Below, one piece after another: positions 10,576 to 23,574 of a DNA stretch of 42,157 bases (position 1 is the stretch's first letter; each line of letters begins with the position of its first letter). The DNA is from Rhodospirillaceae bacterium. Lineage in GTDB: Bacteria > Pseudomonadota > Alphaproteobacteria > CACIAM-22H2. The translations under genes and the position numbers were made by a program. The stretch is from contig SHVT01000006.1 in assembly GCA_009694125.1 (NCBI GenBank), positions 1 through 42,157 on the forward strand, in the 5' to 3' direction. The notes below the pieces were generated by a model that was given only the letters and a program-made list of their open reading frames with translations, ran no database searches and had not been told where the DNA came from.

Positions 10576-11901
10576 ATGAGCGAAACAACGAGCGCGACAT
10601 CGCGGGTGCTGGTCGAACGGGTGGCCGGCTGGCTGATGAACCAGGCGCTGAACGACGCCGATCTGGAATCCGTCGTCCGCGGTTGTTGCGAACGCTTGCA
10701 CGCCGCGGGCGTGCCCATAGCCCGTGCGCAGATGTCGTTCTCCATGTTGCATCCGCTCTATCGCGCCGCCGGATTCGCATGGCGTCGGGGTCAAGATCTG
10801 AAAATCGATGCCTATCGCCACGTACCCGACGGCGCCCGCGCCGCCGGCGGTTTTACCACCGAACGTTTCACCAAGAGTCCCTATTTTCACCTGGTGCAGC
10901 ACGACCTGGATCATCTTCGGCGCCGGCTCGACACCGGCGGCGCCGCGGAATTTCCGATCTTCGACGATCTCCGCAAAGAGGGCCTGACCGACTACCTGGC
11001 CTACAGAAGCGCCTTCTCGCTCGGCACCGGCCAGGGAATGCTAGGCTCGTGGTCCACGGATCAGCGCGGCGGCTTCGCCGATCCCGAGATCGAGGCCCTG
11101 TTGCGGATTCAGGATCCCTTGGCCGCCGCCTGCAAACAGGCCGTGCGGAGCGGCATGGCCAAAAGCGTGCTTTCCACCTATTTGGGGGGCGGCGCGGGCG
11201 AGAGGGTGTTGTCGGGCCGAATCAAACGTGGCGACGGCGAAACCACGCGGGCGGCGATCGTTTGGGGCGACATCCGCAATTCGACGCAGCTTGCCGAAAC
11301 CCTGGGGCGAGAGGCCTATATCGAGCTGCTCAATGGCTTTTTCGACGCGATGGCGGGCGCCGTGGCCGATGCCGGCGGCGACATTCTTAGTTTCATCGGC
11401 GATGGCTTCCTCGCCGTGTTTCCCTGCGGCCGCAACCAAAAGGAATCGGTCGCCGCCTGCAAGCGGGCCCTGGCGGCAGCCGAAGACGCGGCCGCTCGGA
11501 TGGGGACGTTCAACCGCGACCGTAAGGAAAAGGACAAGGAGGCGCTCGGCTACGGAATCGGCCTCCATATCGGCAACGTCATGTATGGCAATGTCGGGCT
11601 CGCCGAAAGGTCGTCCTTTTCGGTGTTCGGTTCCGCGGTCAACGAAGTGGCGCGGCTGGAGGCGACGACGAAGAAATTCGTCACGCCGATCGTGGCCAGC
11701 GAAGTCTTCAAGACCTATTGCGGCGGCGACTGGGTGCCGCTTGGGCGCGAGAGCCTGCGCGGCGTCAACGCACCGATGGCGGTGTTCAAGCCGGTCGTGG
11801 CGGAGGCACAAGCGCCCGCTGCCTTGGTCGATCGCGGGACGAACCGGAACGTGAGCGACGCCGAGGCCGTTGTCCTTCTCTACCGCCGCCGCCCGGCTTG
11901 A
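10576..11901 (+). CDS. Adenylate/guanylate cyclase domain (class III) protein
   Basis: AAIVWGDIRNSTQLAETLGREAYIELLNGFFDAMAGAVADAGGDILSFIGDGFLAVFPCG ... FSVFGSAVNEVARLEATTK. Confidence 0.9.
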   Translation: MSETTSATSRVLVERVAGWLMNQALNDADLESVVRGCCERLHAAGVPIARAQMSFSMLHPLYRAAGFAWRRGQDLKIDAYRHVPDGARAAGGFTTERFTKSPYFHLVQHDLDHLRRRLDTGGAAEFPIFDDLRKEGLTDYLAYRSAFSLGTGQGMLGSWSTDQRGGFADPEIEALLRIQDPLAAACKQAVRSGMAKSVLSTYLGGGAGERVLSGRIKRGDGETTRAAIVWGDIRNSTQLAETLGREAYIELLNGFFDAMAGAVADAGGDILSFIGDGFLAVFPCGRNQKESVAACKRALAAAEDAAARMGTFNRDRKEKDKEALGYGIGLHIGNVMYGNVGLAERSSFSVFGSAVNEVARLEATTKKFVTPIVASEVFKTYCGGDWVPLGRESLRGVNAPMAVFKPVVAEAQAPAALVDRGTNRNVSDAEAVVLLYRRRPA

Positions 11902-11985
11902 CAGACGCAGGGGCGGGGCGCCTTACTGTGTGTGGCCGCGCGTTAAGAAAATGAACGGCAGCGGCACCGGGTTCTTGGGGGTCCG

Positions 11986-12690
11986 ATGCGGGGAACGGTC
12001 GCCGCCATAGCCTTCGCGCTATGCGCCGCCATGGCGAGTCATAACGTTCGCGCCGAGGATGACTACCGCTTTCTCCGCCTCGACGACAATTACGTCAAAT
12101 GGGGGCCACCCCTGATGCGTACGGGTGCCAAGGCGCGTTACGCCTTGGTGACCGGACCCGCGCAATTTCTGGGCGTCCGCAATTGCGGCGACATGAACGC
12201 GATGGATCGCATCGCCCATGCCGCGCAGGTCGATCTCGCGGCTGTTCGCGCGGAGATCGCCGCGGGTTTTGCCCTGTGGGAAGCGGCGGCCGACATCACG
12301 TTTGAACCGGCCGAAGACCACGACAGTGCCGACATCCTGATCGGCACGACGGTCAACCCGGAGGGCTGGGCGTTCACCGATGTCTCCTATGACCATGCCG
12401 GCGACCATGCCGGTCTGACGCGGACAAAATCCATCAAGCGGGCGCTGATCTGCGTGAACGCGGGCAAACCCTGGAAGATCGGATTTGGCGGCGATCTCGG
12501 GATTTACGATTTTCGTTACGTTTTTGCCCATGAAATCGGTCACGCCATCGGGCTGGGTCATTCCGGCGACGGCGGACAAGTGATGTCGCTGCAATATGGC
12601 GAACAATTCCGGACCCTTCAGGGCGGCGACCGCGCCGGCGCCATCGCCCTGTATGGCCGCAAACGTCCACCGCCCGCGTCCGCGCCGTGA
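11986..12690 (+). CDS. Secreted matrixin-like zinc metalloprotease
   Basis: Signal peptide MRGTVAAIAFALCAAMASHNVRA; metzincin motif HEIGHAIGLGHS followed by Met-turn-like QVMSLQYG. Confidence 0.85.
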   Translation: MRGTVAAIAFALCAAMASHNVRAEDDYRFLRLDDNYVKWGPPLMRTGAKARYALVTGPAQFLGVRNCGDMNAMDRIAHAAQVDLAAVRAEIAAGFALWEAAADITFEPAEDHDSADILIGTTVNPEGWAFTDVSYDHAGDHAGLTRTKSIKRALICVNAGKPWKIGFGGDLGIYDFRYVFAHEIGHAIGLGHSGDGGQVMSLQYGEQFRTLQGGDRAGAIALYGRKRPPPASAP

Positions 12691-13934: not shown

Positions 13935-14196
13935 GATATTTTCCATGAGACGCTCAAAACCACGCGCAGCCTCGGAGGACCGGCAAACCCGCGCATCGTG
14001 CAGCCGGCGCACGCCCCAGGTTGTGCGAAGGGCTTGGGAAATTGTCCGGTCGACCCAAGTGATCGCAGCAAGATTCAAGGGCACTCATCATGATTGATTC
14101 GCGTCCTGCAAAAAATCTGGTTGAACTTCGCAAAATGCTCCGCTATAGAGAATCGAACTTCGGGATTCGTTTCATCGCGAAGGGGGTCGCTTGACG

Positions 14197-14598
14197 ATGG
14201 CTGTGGCCAATAGAGTGGTAGAAGACAACGTCAAACGTTCCGATCCTCAATGGCGCCGCAACGCGAAGGGTAAGTTCTTTCGCTTGGCGGACATTGATCC
14301 TCCGGCCGATATGCCGGAAGGCGGCGGGGTCTACGTCATTTGGCATGGCGGCGTTAAGCCGCAATGGATTGTCGTGGGCCACAATCGAAACCTTCGCGAT
14401 CATGTCGAAAAGATCAAAAAGGACCAGGAAGTGCGGTCCTACGAGGTCAATGGCGGCGTGTTCGTCACCTGGTCGCCGATCATCGAGAATCACCGCGACG
14501 GCGTGGTCAACTACCTGATCCAGGTTCTGAAGCCGGTGAAGTCCTCGGTCACCCGCGACGCCAACGCCAAACCCATCGCGGTCTACATCCCCGGCTGA
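14197..14598 (+). CDS. Hypothetical protein, possibly a degenerate GIY-YIG-like fold
   Basis: GGVYVIWHGGVKPQWIVVGHNRNLRDHVEKIKKD...NYLIQVLKPVKSS resembles GxY...(Y)xG...NLRxR...LIxxLKP spacing. Start ATG 14197 or TTG 14191. Confidence 0.7.
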   Translation: MAVANRVVEDNVKRSDPQWRRNAKGKFFRLADIDPPADMPEGGGVYVIWHGGVKPQWIVVGHNRNLRDHVEKIKKDQEVRSYEVNGGVFVTWSPIIENHRDGVVNYLIQVLKPVKSSVTRDANAKPIAVYIPG

Positions 14599-16635: not shown

Positions 16636-17771
16636 TGGCCAAAGCCGCGGGTCCGGCCATAGGCGCCTCCGCCCGGCCCATGAGCGCGGTCGCCGATCGT
16701 GTCGGCGCGGTCGGCATTCTCGGCGCCTTGCCGGACGCGGTTCTGGTCATCGACGAAGCCGACCGCATCGGTTTCGCCAATCCGGCGGCAGAGCAGTTTT
16801 TCGACGCCAGCCGTGCCCAGCTTTACAGCCTATCGCTGGCCGATCTGCTGCCGCTCGATAGCGCGGTGTTCACCCTGTTGCGCGAGGTCCGGGCCTCCGG
16901 CAACAGCGTCTCCGAGGATGGCGTGACCTTGGAGGCGCGGCGGATCGGCTCGCACTTCGTTACCCTCGGCGCCGCGCCTCTCGGCGATGGCGGCGAGGCT
17001 GTCCTGCTTTCCATCCATGAACGCTCGATCGCGCGCAAGATCGACCTTCAACTTGTCCATCGCAACGCGGCGCGTTCGATCACGGCCATGGCCGCCATTC
17101 TCGCCCATGAGGTAAAAAACCCGCTTTCCGGCATCCGCGGCGCCGCCCAACTCCTTGAACAGAACGCCTCGGCCGCTGACCGCGAGCTGACTCGCCTCAT
17201 TTGCGACGAAACCGACAGAATTTGCGGGTTGGTCGATCGCATGGAGGTGTTCTCCGACCGGCGGCCGATCGATCGTGGCCCGGTCAACATCCATCGCGTT
17301 CTGGAACATGTCCGCAAGGTCGCGCAGACCGGTTTCGGCCGCCGCGTCCGGTTCATCGAACAATATGATCCGTCGCTGCCGTCGGTGTTCGGCAATCGCG
17401 ACCAGCTCGTTCAGGTCTTCCTGAACCTGGTCAAGAACGCGGCCGAGGCATGCCCGGAGGAAGGCGCTGAAATCGTGCTGTCCACCGCCTATCAACATGG
17501 CGTCCGCCTGACCGTCCCGGGCGGCGATCGCCTGACCCATCTGCCGCTCCGCATCAGCGTCCAGGACAACGGCGCGGGTGTTTCCGAGGATGTCCGCAGC
17601 CACCTGTTCGACGCCTTCGTCACCACCAAGAACAACGGCACCGGCCTTGGCTTGGCGCTGGTCGCCAAGATCATCGGCGATCATGGCGGCGTCATCGAAT
17701 TCGACAGCCAGCCGCGCCGCACGGTGTTCCGCGTCATGCTGCCGATGCACTCAGTCTCCGGGAACGAATAA
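16635..17771 (+). CDS. ntrB: Nitrogen regulation sensor histidine kinase NtrB
   Basis: PAS-like N-terminus; [20 protein letters not shown]-box; [22 protein letters not shown] overlaps the dusB stop (TGATG). The ORF-track start at 16200 is too far upstream. Confidence 0.95.
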
Positions 17772-19201
17772 TGGCGTCCACCATCCTGGTCGCCGATGAC
17801 GACCGCGCGATCCGCACGGTGCTGACGCAGGCGCTCGGCCGCCAGGGCTACGACGTCCGCACGACCGGCAACGCCGCCACGCTTTGGCGCTGGGTGGAGG
17901 ACGGGGAGGGCGATCTCGTCATCACCGATGTTGTCATGCCCGATGAAAACGGCCTCGACCTTATTCCGCGCATCCGCAAGATACGGCCCGATCTGCGCGT
18001 GATCGTGATGAGCGCGCAGAACACGTTGCTGACCGCGGTCAAGGCGACGGAGCGGGGGGCGTTCGAATATCTGCCCAAACCCTTCGACCTGAAGGAGCTG
18101 ATCGGCGTGGTCGAGCGGGCGCTCAGCGTGCGCCCGACGCCGGTCGCGAGTGAGCTCGTCGAGGGTGAAGAACAGCTTCCGCTGATCGGCCGCTCGCCTG
18201 CGATGCAGGAAATCTATCGTGTGCTCGCGCGGCTGATGGGCACCGATCTGACTGTGCTGATCGCCGGCGAATCCGGCACCGGCAAGGAGCTGGTTGCTCG
18301 CGCCCTGCACGATTACGGCAAACGCCGCAATGGCCCCTTCATCGCCATCAACATGGCCGCGATCCCGCGCGATCTGATCGAAAGCGAGCTGTTCGGCCAT
18401 GAGAAAGGCGCCTTCACCGGCGCCGCCGCCCGTTATGCCGGCCGCTTCGAGCAGGCCGAACGCGGGACCCTGTTTCTCGACGAAATCGGCGACATGCCGC
18501 TGGAGGCCCAGACCCGGCTGCTGCGCGTCCTGCAGCAGGGCGAATACACGACCGTTGGCGGGCGCACGCCGATCAAGGCCAATGTCCGCATCGTCGCGGC
18601 CACCCATACCGATCTGCGCATCCTGGTGCGCCAGGGCCTGTTTCGCGAGGATTTGTTCTATAGGCTGGCCGTCGTTCCGATCCGCCTGCCGCCCTTGCGC
18701 GAACGCGCCGAGGACATCCCGGCGCTCGCCCGCCATTTCTTCACGCTGGCCTCGGTGCAGGGATTGCCGGTCAAGACGCTCGACGCGGCCGCGATGGAAA
18801 GGCTGCGGACGCATCGCTGGCCGGGCAATGTGCGCGAATTGGAAAATCTGGTGCGGCGGCTGGCCGCCCTTTATTCGCAGGAGGTCATCGAGATGGACGT
18901 GGTTGAGGCCGAATTGGCCGATGCCGCGCCGCCCTCCACCGCCCCGGTCGCGGAGGAATCCTTGAGCACGGCGGTCGAACGTCAGCTCCGCAACTATTTC
19001 GGCGCGCAGGCCGACATGCTGCCGGCCGCCGGTCTCTACGACCGCGTGTTGCGGGAAATCGAACGCCCGCTGATTTCGCTGACCCTGGCCGCCACCCGCG
19101 GCAACCAGATCAAGGCCGCCGACGTGCTTGGCATCAACCGCAACACGCTCCGCAAGAAAATCCGCGAACTCGACATCCAAGTCCTGCGCGGCCTCAAGTA
19201 A
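17771..19201 (+). CDS. ntrC: Nitrogen regulation response regulator NtrC (sigma54 activator)
   Basis: Receiver domain, GESGTGKE Walker [15 protein letters not shown]-terminal Fis-type HTH. Confidence 0.97.
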
Positions 19202-19317
19202 CGCGCGCAAGCGTGTTCCGGCCTCTCCGACTACACGAATTCGCCCTTCACTACCCTGTGTACGGTGGATGAAGTGGTGTTTGCCTGGATCTCGCCGCGC
19301 GGGGGGGCGTGCCGGAT

Positions 19318-19716
19318 ATGAGTTCCAATGACAAACCGCAAGAAGGTCTCGACTGGCGTTCCCTTGCGGCGACGTTGCTCTCATTCCTGCTCGTTTTCGC
19401 TACGGCTGGGCCGCCCTGGCGTTTCTCGGCGCCACGGCGCTCGATCTTCAAGCCATCCAAACTTGGGTCGGCGAACAAGACTGGCTGAAGTTTCTCAAGC
19501 CGGAAATCCGCGACTTGGTTGTGTCTTCGCTCTGGCAGCCGGCGGCGGCCCTGATCCTGGCCGCATTTCTAACGAGTAAATTCAAACCGGGAATTGCTTG
19601 GACGATCGATTCGTTTTTCCCTCCAAGTCCGACCTTTTTAGGCTGGTGGGACGAGGCGCGGGAGGAATTGGATTTCCCGCCGGAACCTGGTCCGGCTCGC
19701 CGGCAGGGAGCGGGAA
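19318..19716 (+). other. Out-of-frame N-terminal membrane region of the STAND NTPase gene (two apparent frameshifts)
   Basis: Frame from ATG 19318: MSSNDKPQEGLDWRSLAATLLSFLLVF; one missing base in the T run 19394-19397 restores RYGWAALAFLGATALDL...WQPAAALILAAFLTSKF...LGWWDEAREELDFPPE; one extra C at 19686-19687 restores LVRLAGRERELSLLDGFL in frame with the downstream ORF. Confidence 0.65.
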
Positions 19717-21042
19717 TTGTCGTTGCTCGATGGTTTCCTGGTGGATGAGCAGCGGCTGGCTTTCTGGTGGATCGGCGGGCCGGGAGGCTTGGGCAAAAGC
19801 CGCCTGATCCTCGATTGGGCAAGGCTCGTTCCGAAGAAACGCCGTTGGTACGGGGCGCCGCGCTACGACATCGGCCGCGCCACGTTTCTTTTCCATTCCG
19901 CCGTCGAATGGCGCAACTGGCGACCGCGCCGACCGACGATCGTCATTGTCGACGACATCGCCGATCAGCCCGAGAAAGTGGGCTTCCTGCTTCAAGGCCT
20001 CGGCCAGAGGGAACCCGGCTCGCTGGACTATCCCCTCCGCGTTCTCCTCGCGGAGCGTTCCTGGCCCGATCGCATCAAAGAGGTAACCGACAGGTCCTAT
20101 TTCACCGACCATCGTTACCGACCCGAGCCGCTGGTGCCGGCACTCCTGGATCGCACGGCGATCCGAGCAATGGCGCAAGACCTGAGCGATTCCGGTGCGA
20201 TCTTGAAAGCGGCCTCGGATGATGTCGTCGACTCCGTCTTTAAGACGAGTCAGGGGTTGCCCTTCTTTGCCTTGTTGCTGTTGCTCTCCTTCGGGCGAGG
20301 CGAACTCAGTGAAGGGCTTAGCCTGACCGATGCCTTGAAAGAACAATCGCGGCGCATGGTCGCCAAGTTGCTGGCCGGTGGATTGAAGCCAAACCATCTG
20401 CCCTTGCTCGCGCTCGCGGTGTTCACGCGCGGCCTCGACTGGGACGCGGCAAGGGCCTTCGACACAGACCTTCCAGCAAAGCCGACGCTCGACGCCTGGT
20501 TTCATGAGGATTGCGCGAAGGAGATTCCGGGGATTGGGCCAGACATTCTCGGAGAACGATTCCTTTTGGATCGGTTCTCGGAGCTTGCGGCACCGTCTCG
20601 CGGGAATTTTCTTCGATCGGCATGGGGTTCACGCCCGCAAGCCTGCGCCCTCACTCTCTTCAAAGTCCATTTCGATTTCCCGAACGACCCTCTCTTGGGC
20701 GAGATCGACGCGGTACCGGAAGATGCTGAAGCGGGTCTCTGGTGGGGACGAGTCCACGGCGAGTTGCTTGCCAGCGACACTGTGGAGGGTACCCGAAAGG
20801 ATAGGTATTGGCGCTTGCTGTTGAAGACGGGGCGCGCCTTTTTGGACCGTCCGCATCTTCAGCTGGCGCTCGCCGAGGGCGCGGTCAACGCGATCTTCGA
20901 TTTCGGGATCCACCAAAGGTGGGAGGATTTGGCGCAGGCGCGGCCGGAATTGCGCGACGTCGCCGAACGTTTCCCCGACCATGCGGACATTCAGCAAGCC
21001 TTCAAGGTCGGCGAAGAAGTCGTCGGCAAACACAAGAAGTGA
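19717..21042 (+). CDS. P-loop NTPase, STAND/NB-ARC-like
   Basis: FWWIGGPGGLGKSRLILDWARL (Walker A), RRPTIVIVDDIAD (Walker B), PLRVLLAERSW, DILGERFLLDRFSELA; layout matches bacterial STAND ATPases. Confidence 0.8.
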   Translation: MSLLDGFLVDEQRLAFWWIGGPGGLGKSRLILDWARLVPKKRRWYGAPRYDIGRATFLFHSAVEWRNWRPRRPTIVIVDDIADQPEKVGFLLQGLGQREPGSLDYPLRVLLAERSWPDRIKEVTDRSYFTDHRYRPEPLVPALLDRTAIRAMAQDLSDSGAILKAASDDVVDSVFKTSQGLPFFALLLLLSFGRGELSEGLSLTDALKEQSRRMVAKLLAGGLKPNHLPLLALAVFTRGLDWDAARAFDTDLPAKPTLDAWFHEDCAKEIPGIGPDILGERFLLDRFSELAAPSRGNFLRSAWGSRPQACALTLFKVHFDFPNDPLLGEIDAVPEDAEAGLWWGRVHGELLASDTVEGTRKDRYWRLLLKTGRAFLDRPHLQLALAEGAVNAIFDFGIHQRWEDLAQARPELRDVAERFPDHADIQQAFKVGEEVVGKHKK

Positions 21043-21045
21043 TCC

Positions 21046-21106
21046 TGGCCTCGGTGCTGGGGGGATTACTTCCGCTCCGCCCCCTAACCCATCCGAGGCC
21101 ATTTTT
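21046..21106 (+). terminator. Rho-independent terminator after the STAND NTPase gene
   Basis: Perfect 9-bp arms TGGCCTCGG (21046-21054)/CCGAGGCCA (21093-21101), inner GGGGG/CCCCC pairing, followed by TTTTT at 21102-21106. Confidence 0.8.
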
Positions 21107-21143
21107 GCCAAATCTTCGGGACTCAATCGGTCTTGCCGCCATT

Positions 21144-21273: not shown

Positions 21274-23563
21274 ATGACGAGCGAGCGCACGGCCGACCAT
21301 CCGCCTCTGTCCCGGCGGCTTCGGGCCTGGTCGGATCGGATCGGCCTGCGCCGTAAATTGGCCGTTCTTCTGGCCGTGGCGGCGGTGCTCAGCGGCGTCG
21401 CCACTTATGTCGCCCTGACCGAATCGCAATTCACCGCCGATCCGAACACCGTCCAGCTTCTCCTCGTGCTCGACCTCGCCCTCATGTTGATGTTGGGCGC
21501 CGTCGTCGCCTCGCGGATCGTGCGGCTGTGGAGCGAGCGGCGGCGCGGGTCGGCCGGCTCGCGGCTGCATGTTCGGCTGGTCGTGTTATTCGGCTTCCTG
21601 GCCGCGGCACCGGCGATCGTTGTCGCGGTGTTCTCGGTTCTATTCTTCAACCTCGGCATCGAGGCCTGGTTCAGCGAGAAGGTTCGCACCGCGCTGGACG
21701 AATCGCGCGCCGTCGCCGAGGCCTATGTCGAGGAACACCGCCAGAATATCCGCGCCGACCTGCTGGCCATGGCCAGCGACCTCGGGCGCGAGGGTTTCGA
21801 CGCCATCGCCAATCCGCGCCGCTTTGGGCAGCTTGTCGTCGCGCAGGCGGCGTTGCGCTCGCTGACAGAAGCCGTCGTGTTCGACGGCCGCGGCCGCGTT
21901 CTGGCCCGTGCCGGGCTCACTTGGACACTTGAGTTGGAAGGAGTTCCCGCCGGGGCCGTCGAAAGAGCCGATGCCGGCGAGGTCGTCATTTTCAACCCGG
22001 ATGCGGACGACACCACGACCGCGCGCAACGATCGCGTGCGTGCCCTGGTGCGGCTCGATGAAGTGGCCGAACGTGTCTATCTGCTGGTCGGACGCTTCAT
22101 TGAGGCGCGCGTCGTCGAACACGCCGATCGCACCCGCCGCGCCGTGGTCGCTTATCAAACCCTCGAAGGACAACGTTCGGAATATCAGATCACCTTTGCC
22201 CTGATCTTCGGCGTGGTCGCGTTCCTGCTTCTCCTCGCCGCCGTCTGGATGGGCCTCGTGATGGCGACGCGCATGGCCCATCCGATCAGCCAACTGATCG
22301 CCGCCGCCGAACGCGTCCGCAGCGGCGATCTCGCCGCCCGCGTCGGCGAACCCGCCAGCGACGATGAAATCGGCGCCTTGAGCCGCGCCTTCAACCGCAT
22401 GACGAGCCAGCTCGAACATCAGCGCGAGGAGTTGATCGCCGCCAATCGCCAGATCGACGAACGGCGCCGCTTCATCGAGGCCGTGCTCGCCGGCACTTCG
22501 GCCGGCGTCGTTGGGCTCGACCGCGGCGGCCGCATCAATTTGCTCAATCGCGCCGCCTCGCAATTGCTGGCCACCGACCTCGATCGCCGCATGGGCGAGG
22601 CCCTGCCCGCGGTCGTCCCGGAGATGGAAGCGTTGGTCGAGGCCGCCGCCGCCGCGCCGGCGCGGCTGGCCCAGGGCCAGATCAACATCATGTGTGCCCG
22701 CCGCCAGCGGACCTTCCTCGTGCGTGTGGCGGCGGAGCGCGACGAACGCGAAACCGTCGGATTCGTCGTCACCTTCGACGATGTCAGCGATATCCTGGCC
22801 GTGCAGCGCAAGGCGGCCTGGGCCGACGTCGCCCGACGCATCGCCCATGAAATCAAGAACCCGCTGACTCCGATCCAACTTTCCGCCGAACGCCTGAAGC
22901 GGCGCTATCTCAGCGAGATCGTCAGCGATCCGGAAACGTTCCGGCAATGCACCGAGACCATCGTGCGGCAGGTCGCCGATATCGGCCGCATGGTCGATGA
23001 ATTTTCCGCCTTCGCCCGTATGCCGGCGCCGGTGATGCGGGATGAGGACCTGGTGGAATTATGCCGCCAGGCCATCTTTCTCCAGCACCAGGGCAGCCCG
23101 GAGATCGAATTCGCCATCGTCACGCCCCCCCACCCGGTCCTGCTGCCCTGCGACGCCCAACAGATTCGTCAGGCCTTGACGAATCTGTTGAAGAACGCGG
23201 TTGAGGCGATCCAGGCGCGCGAGGGTCAGGTTGGCGAGGGTGAACCAGGCGGCCTGCCGCGGGGACGCATCGCCGTCACCGTCGTCGCCGGCGTGGGCGA
23301 GACCCGGATCGACATCGAAGACAACGGCCGCGGCCTGCCCGTCGACGAACGCGATCGCCTGACCGAACCCTATGTCACGACGCGGAGCAAGGGCACCGGG
23401 TTGGGCTTGGCCATCGTCAAGAAGATCATGGAAGATCATGGCGGCGAGCTGACGCTTGAAGACCGCGAAGGCGGCGGCGCTTGCATTCGCATGATTTTCA
23501 GAAGAAACGATACGGACAGCGCCGCCGAATCCAAGCCCACCGTCTACCGCCTTAAGGCCGCCC

Positions 23564-23574
<11 letters not shown>
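21274..23574 (+). CDS. ntrY: Nitrogen regulation sensor histidine kinase NtrY
   Basis: N-terminal TM helices, HAMP, PAS, HEIKNPLTPIQLSAERLKRRY, TRSKGTGLGLAIVKKIMEDHGG. ATG 21274 (MTSERTADHPP) preferred over 21190. Confidence 0.95.

Follow-up and report, generated by a model that had tools for sequence, protein, structure and literature searches.

Avs5, or AVAST type 5, combines a SIR2 domain, an nSTAND3 NTPase and TPR/Sel1 repeats in one protein (PMC12931631). Kaur et al. (2020, 2021) describe conflict systems in which STAND/EAD proteins carry exchangeable effectors, as well as predicted 2TM pore-forming effectors (SLATT) (PMC7159879, PMC8195603). Proteins with an nSTAND_NTPase5 domain (PF25199) are exemplified by a trypsin-STAND-TPR protein with a trypco2 neighbour on the Streptomyces plasmid NZ_CP108622. 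Here we describe a gene of this known kind, an effector joined to a STAND switch and a TPR sensor and not a new system, in a 42,157-nucleotide stretch of DNA (the window) from an uncultured alphaproteobacterium of the Rhodospirillaceae. We put the probability at roughly 70% that positions 19206-21121 are accessory DNA carrying a membrane-helix effector-STAND-TPR gene that is now probably a pseudogene.

The window protein resembles nSTAND_NTPase5 proteins in its NTPase core motifs, C-terminal TPRs and N-terminal effector, but it falls under the cut-off for that domain, has membrane helices in its effector slot and short repeats, and is encoded by a frameshifted gene. With Avs5 it shares the tripartite effector-STAND-repeat plan; SIR2 occurs in some of its relatives, and weak nSTAND3 matches in 9 of 29, whereas the window protein itself lacks SIR2, has no PADLOC match and lies nearer another STAND subfamily. 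STAND NTPases with exchangeable effectors, membrane helices being a known theme, also recall the systems of Kaur et al., although the hairpin in the window is without homology to a named domain and no conserved partner gene was seen nearby. The P-loop region is weakly matched by the STAND transcription regulator MalT (E=0.004), but a DNA-binding domain was not found in the window protein and a role in transcription is not indicated. The preliminary description had raised anti-phage defence; no PADLOC model, for Avs/AVAST or another catalogued defence system, matched the window or its protein. PADLOC returned one weak match among six relatives, and NCBIfam none for the window protein.

The gene lies, as first described, between ntrC and ntrY, and both flanks are intact. 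ntrC (17771-19201, forward strand) encodes 476 aa and is 97-98% identical to the same-genus copies, and ntrY (21275-23574, forward strand, start approximate) is an open frame with only in-frame indels relative to its siblings. In blastn comparisons with two same-genus genomes, G001 and G002, homology ends at 19204-19205 and restarts at 21122 (G002) or 21160 (G001). Nothing is shared between these points, the segment 19206-21121 has no counterpart in either genome, and no copy of the gene was found in either congener. Profile matches in the congeners were dismissed, the one in G002 being a cyclase-AAA_16 protein and the one in G001 (G001:C26) covering the repeat part only. In the G001 interval (L035:3504-4660) there is instead a DUF2189 gene, encoded on the opposite strand and interrupted by a stop (Pfam E=1.3e-39, the stop read as X), and that of G002 (L036) holds only a short DUF2189 remnant. 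Because the congener intervals differ so in content, the ntrC-ntrY interval is, on these alignments, a variable spot in the genus, which the preliminary description overlooked. In other family members with a readable interval, ntrY follows closely after ntrC with no such gene between. The gene is not a constant part of ntr loci, and its absence from the congeners and from these readable intervals bears out the suggestion that it is accessory cargo. Self-comparison of the segment revealed no long direct or inverted repeats and no border repeats, and hence no transposon signature.

The main open frame, 466 stop-free codons at 19642-21042 on the forward strand, encodes a STAND-type NTPase followed by C-terminal TPR-like repeats. 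The Walker A (GGPGGLGKSRL), Walker B (TIVIVDD) and PDILGERFLL motifs were located as claimed earlier, and each occupies conserved columns when 29 members are aligned. On the forward strand, a GR lead-in (LAGRERELSLL, 19702-19707) precedes the P-loop, its GR present in 26 of the 29 members; Walker A GPGGLGKS follows at 19777-19800 (G36, G38 and K39 invariant), Walker B at 19936-19956 (D91 invariant) and a sensor-like arginine strand, RVLLAER, at 20038-20058 (R120 nearly invariant). Two further motifs are present and aligned with relatives. GLPFF (20254-20268) lines up with RPLF/GEPLF and may be equivalent to the GxP/GLPL-like STAND motif, and PDILGE (20539-20556) lies 3' of the NTPase core, its PD shared by 28 of 29 members; the remaining one, L070, stops before that point. 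The lead-in, both Walker motifs, the arginine and PDxLGE are conserved across the 29 aligned cores and intact in the window protein, which has the Walker A, Walker B and GR lead-in characteristic of the STAND superfamily.

By itself the window protein scores under every Pfam cut-off, with nSTAND_NTPase5 at E=0.06 and 13.6 bits (curated cut-off 34 bits) and AAA_16 at a sub-threshold E=1.4e-4. Among the 29 family members, counting matches up to E=0.05, AAA_16 is found in 25, nSTAND_NTPase5 in 20 and nSTAND3 in 9. The best nSTAND_NTPase5 match reaches 1.2e-10, and one relative, L102, exceeds the cut-off at 38.5 bits. From the conserved motifs and these family matches, the window protein is placed among STAND NTPases, nearest nSTAND_NTPase5. 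The original STAND assignment is thus supported at family level, where the relatives' classical effector N-termini also speak for it. A structure model of the protein has low confidence (pLDDT 66), and a PDB fold search with it gave no significant match, so that neither confirmed a STAND fold or a winged-helix region behind the core.

A stretch overlooked in the preliminary description is the C-terminal run of helical, TPR-like repeats (20725-21039, forward strand), which is short compared with that of relatives. The low-confidence model has helices at residues 349-452, TPR repeats in L003 and L074 can be aligned with this C-terminal part, and the family profile matches OGT TPRs in the PDB. 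Elsewhere in the window's own genome (L068, C30), a 485-codon frame has TPR repeats of similar style, with no NTPase seen inside.

The main frame is longer than chance would give: when the region was shuffled 300 times by mononucleotide, the longest stretch without a stop averaged 147 codons and never exceeded 273. Upstream, the reading frame is broken. Host codon usage favours frame f0 until about 19400, f2 until about 19650 and then f0 through the stop, and because it switches frame at those points, the two frameshifts reported earlier are present in the assembled sequence itself and were not misread. An N-terminal piece (19318-19400, forward strand) supplies an ATG and the start of a first membrane helix, with a codon-usage signal in f0 that is weak over so short a stretch. 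The second piece (19398-19658, forward strand), identified by codon usage in f2 and hydropathy, contains the remainder of that helix and the whole of a second, both predicted. Joined across both switches, the pieces encode about 565 aa, and two hydrophobic helices lie towards the N-terminus, both upstream of the P-loop and with Kyte-Doolittle 19-residue means of 1.66 and 1.90.

Relatives of the window protein are few and distant, the closest sharing 26-29% identity at best. With the window's own genome counted, a single-protein search found them in 6 of 387 class genomes and a profile search in 21 (about 5% of the alphaproteobacterial sample), a sparse distribution that, together with absence from the congeners, supports accessory status. 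Further relatives occur in the genome_contigs set and the phylum sample; a direct scan of genome_contigs with the window protein gave no confirmed match. The window protein likewise matched nothing when plasmids and phages were searched. Five plasmids were matched when a relative served as query, and IS elements lie on either side of one relative carried on a plasmid.

These relatives retain the NTPase and the repeats and swap the N-terminus, a modularity to which the window gene, with its repeats at 20725-21039, conforms. The slot is occupied by SIR2_2 in L076 and L079 (E about 6e-23), an alpha/beta-hydrolase in L075 and L120, TIR_2 in L119 (3.5e-11), Trypsin_2 in L102 (2.2e-10) and an FGE-sulfatase domain in L115. 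The trypsin relative has a trypco2 gene as neighbour, and trypco2 is among the conflict-system domains that Kaur et al. described in 2020 (PMC7159879). The N-termini of L003, L114 and L117 look nuclease-like by eye; no Pfam match was obtained when those of L003 and L114 were scanned. Membrane helices fill the slot in two intact relatives, L081 (two helices; 994 codons) and L107 (one; 1025 codons). For the membrane piece of the window gene, no convincing homologue was found in the 387 class genomes; the best match (5.6e-4), an aminotransferase-like frame, was taken as chance. Because the hairpin occupies the position where relatives carry N-terminal effectors or membrane helices, it is best read as a putative effector or anchor. 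The membrane anchoring proposed earlier is thus backed by two helices upstream of the P-loop and by the precedents of L081 and L107, but those helices emerge only across two frameshifts.

The effector-STAND-TPR layout is that of predicted bacterial conflict proteins, anti-phage or cell-suicide, and on this architecture a defence role is plausible. We propose that the accessory DNA at 19206-21121 takes the place, in this lineage, of the usual sequence between ntrC and ntrY. If the protein worked like STAND proteins that have been studied, Avs5 for one (PMC12931631), its TPR repeats would have sensed a trigger before the gene was broken. The STAND module, on binding nucleotide, would then have switched the protein into an oligomer, whose clustered N-terminal hairpins would perturb the inner membrane or anchor the complex there, with cell arrest or killing as an anti-phage or other conflict response. 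The locus is an example of immunity-type accessory cargo, probably in the course of decay, within a regulatory block that is otherwise conserved.

Over the roughly 9 kb that can be compared with the siblings, indels fall near gene ends, between genes or in multiples of three, and no conserved gene is broken, yet the window gene suffers two breaks within about 300 bp and no single intact reading frame runs through it. This contrast makes real decay likelier than error, and we regard the frameshifts as probably genuine. It weighs against an intact, working membrane-anchored STAND sensor/effector whose frames were disrupted by sequencing or assembly, as does the decayed gene at the equivalent spot in a sibling. 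The assembly is of metagenome type, where frameshifts could be assembly errors; the first switch lies near a short T run, host-like codon usage persists through the successive frames, every NTPase motif is intact and the remaining frame is open for 466 codons. We consider an intact gene disrupted by such errors unlikely. The gene is most likely a young pseudogene that probably no longer yields the complete protein, and the working sensor/effector envisaged in the preliminary description is not supported here.

It is rather doubtful that the protein still works as a STAND NTPase and has for its effector an uncharacterised membrane hairpin of two helices, forming a depolarising pore or a membrane-anchored assembly, in a membrane-helix branch with L081 and L107 that is absent from PADLOC. 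Translation of the main frame alone, yielding a STAND/TPR protein without effector, would draw on the long open frame and intact Walker motifs; the first listed start codon, TTG 19717, lies downstream of the GR lead-in, however, so the product would miss a conserved part of the module, and intact relatives have N-terminal domains or extensions, which leaves this route quite improbable. Least credible of all is that the gene belongs to the ntr block as a regulator in nitrogen sensing. Position and strand would suit it, but the gene is missing from both congeners and ntrY closely follows ntrC in family members with a readable interval; since the gene is not conserved there, we dropped this role.

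The intact STAND-TPR proteins L081 and L107, with their membrane-helix effectors, are the useful lead and better subjects than the window copy, in an NTPase family that also bears TIR, SIR2, trypsin and hydrolase effectors. Elsewhere in the window, an open frame of 135 aa (14191-14598) that matches nothing in Pfam sits in a stretch of lower GC (about 0.57), and at 10576-12690 a gene for a matrixin-like M10 peptidase comes after an adenylate/guanylate cyclase domain gene.
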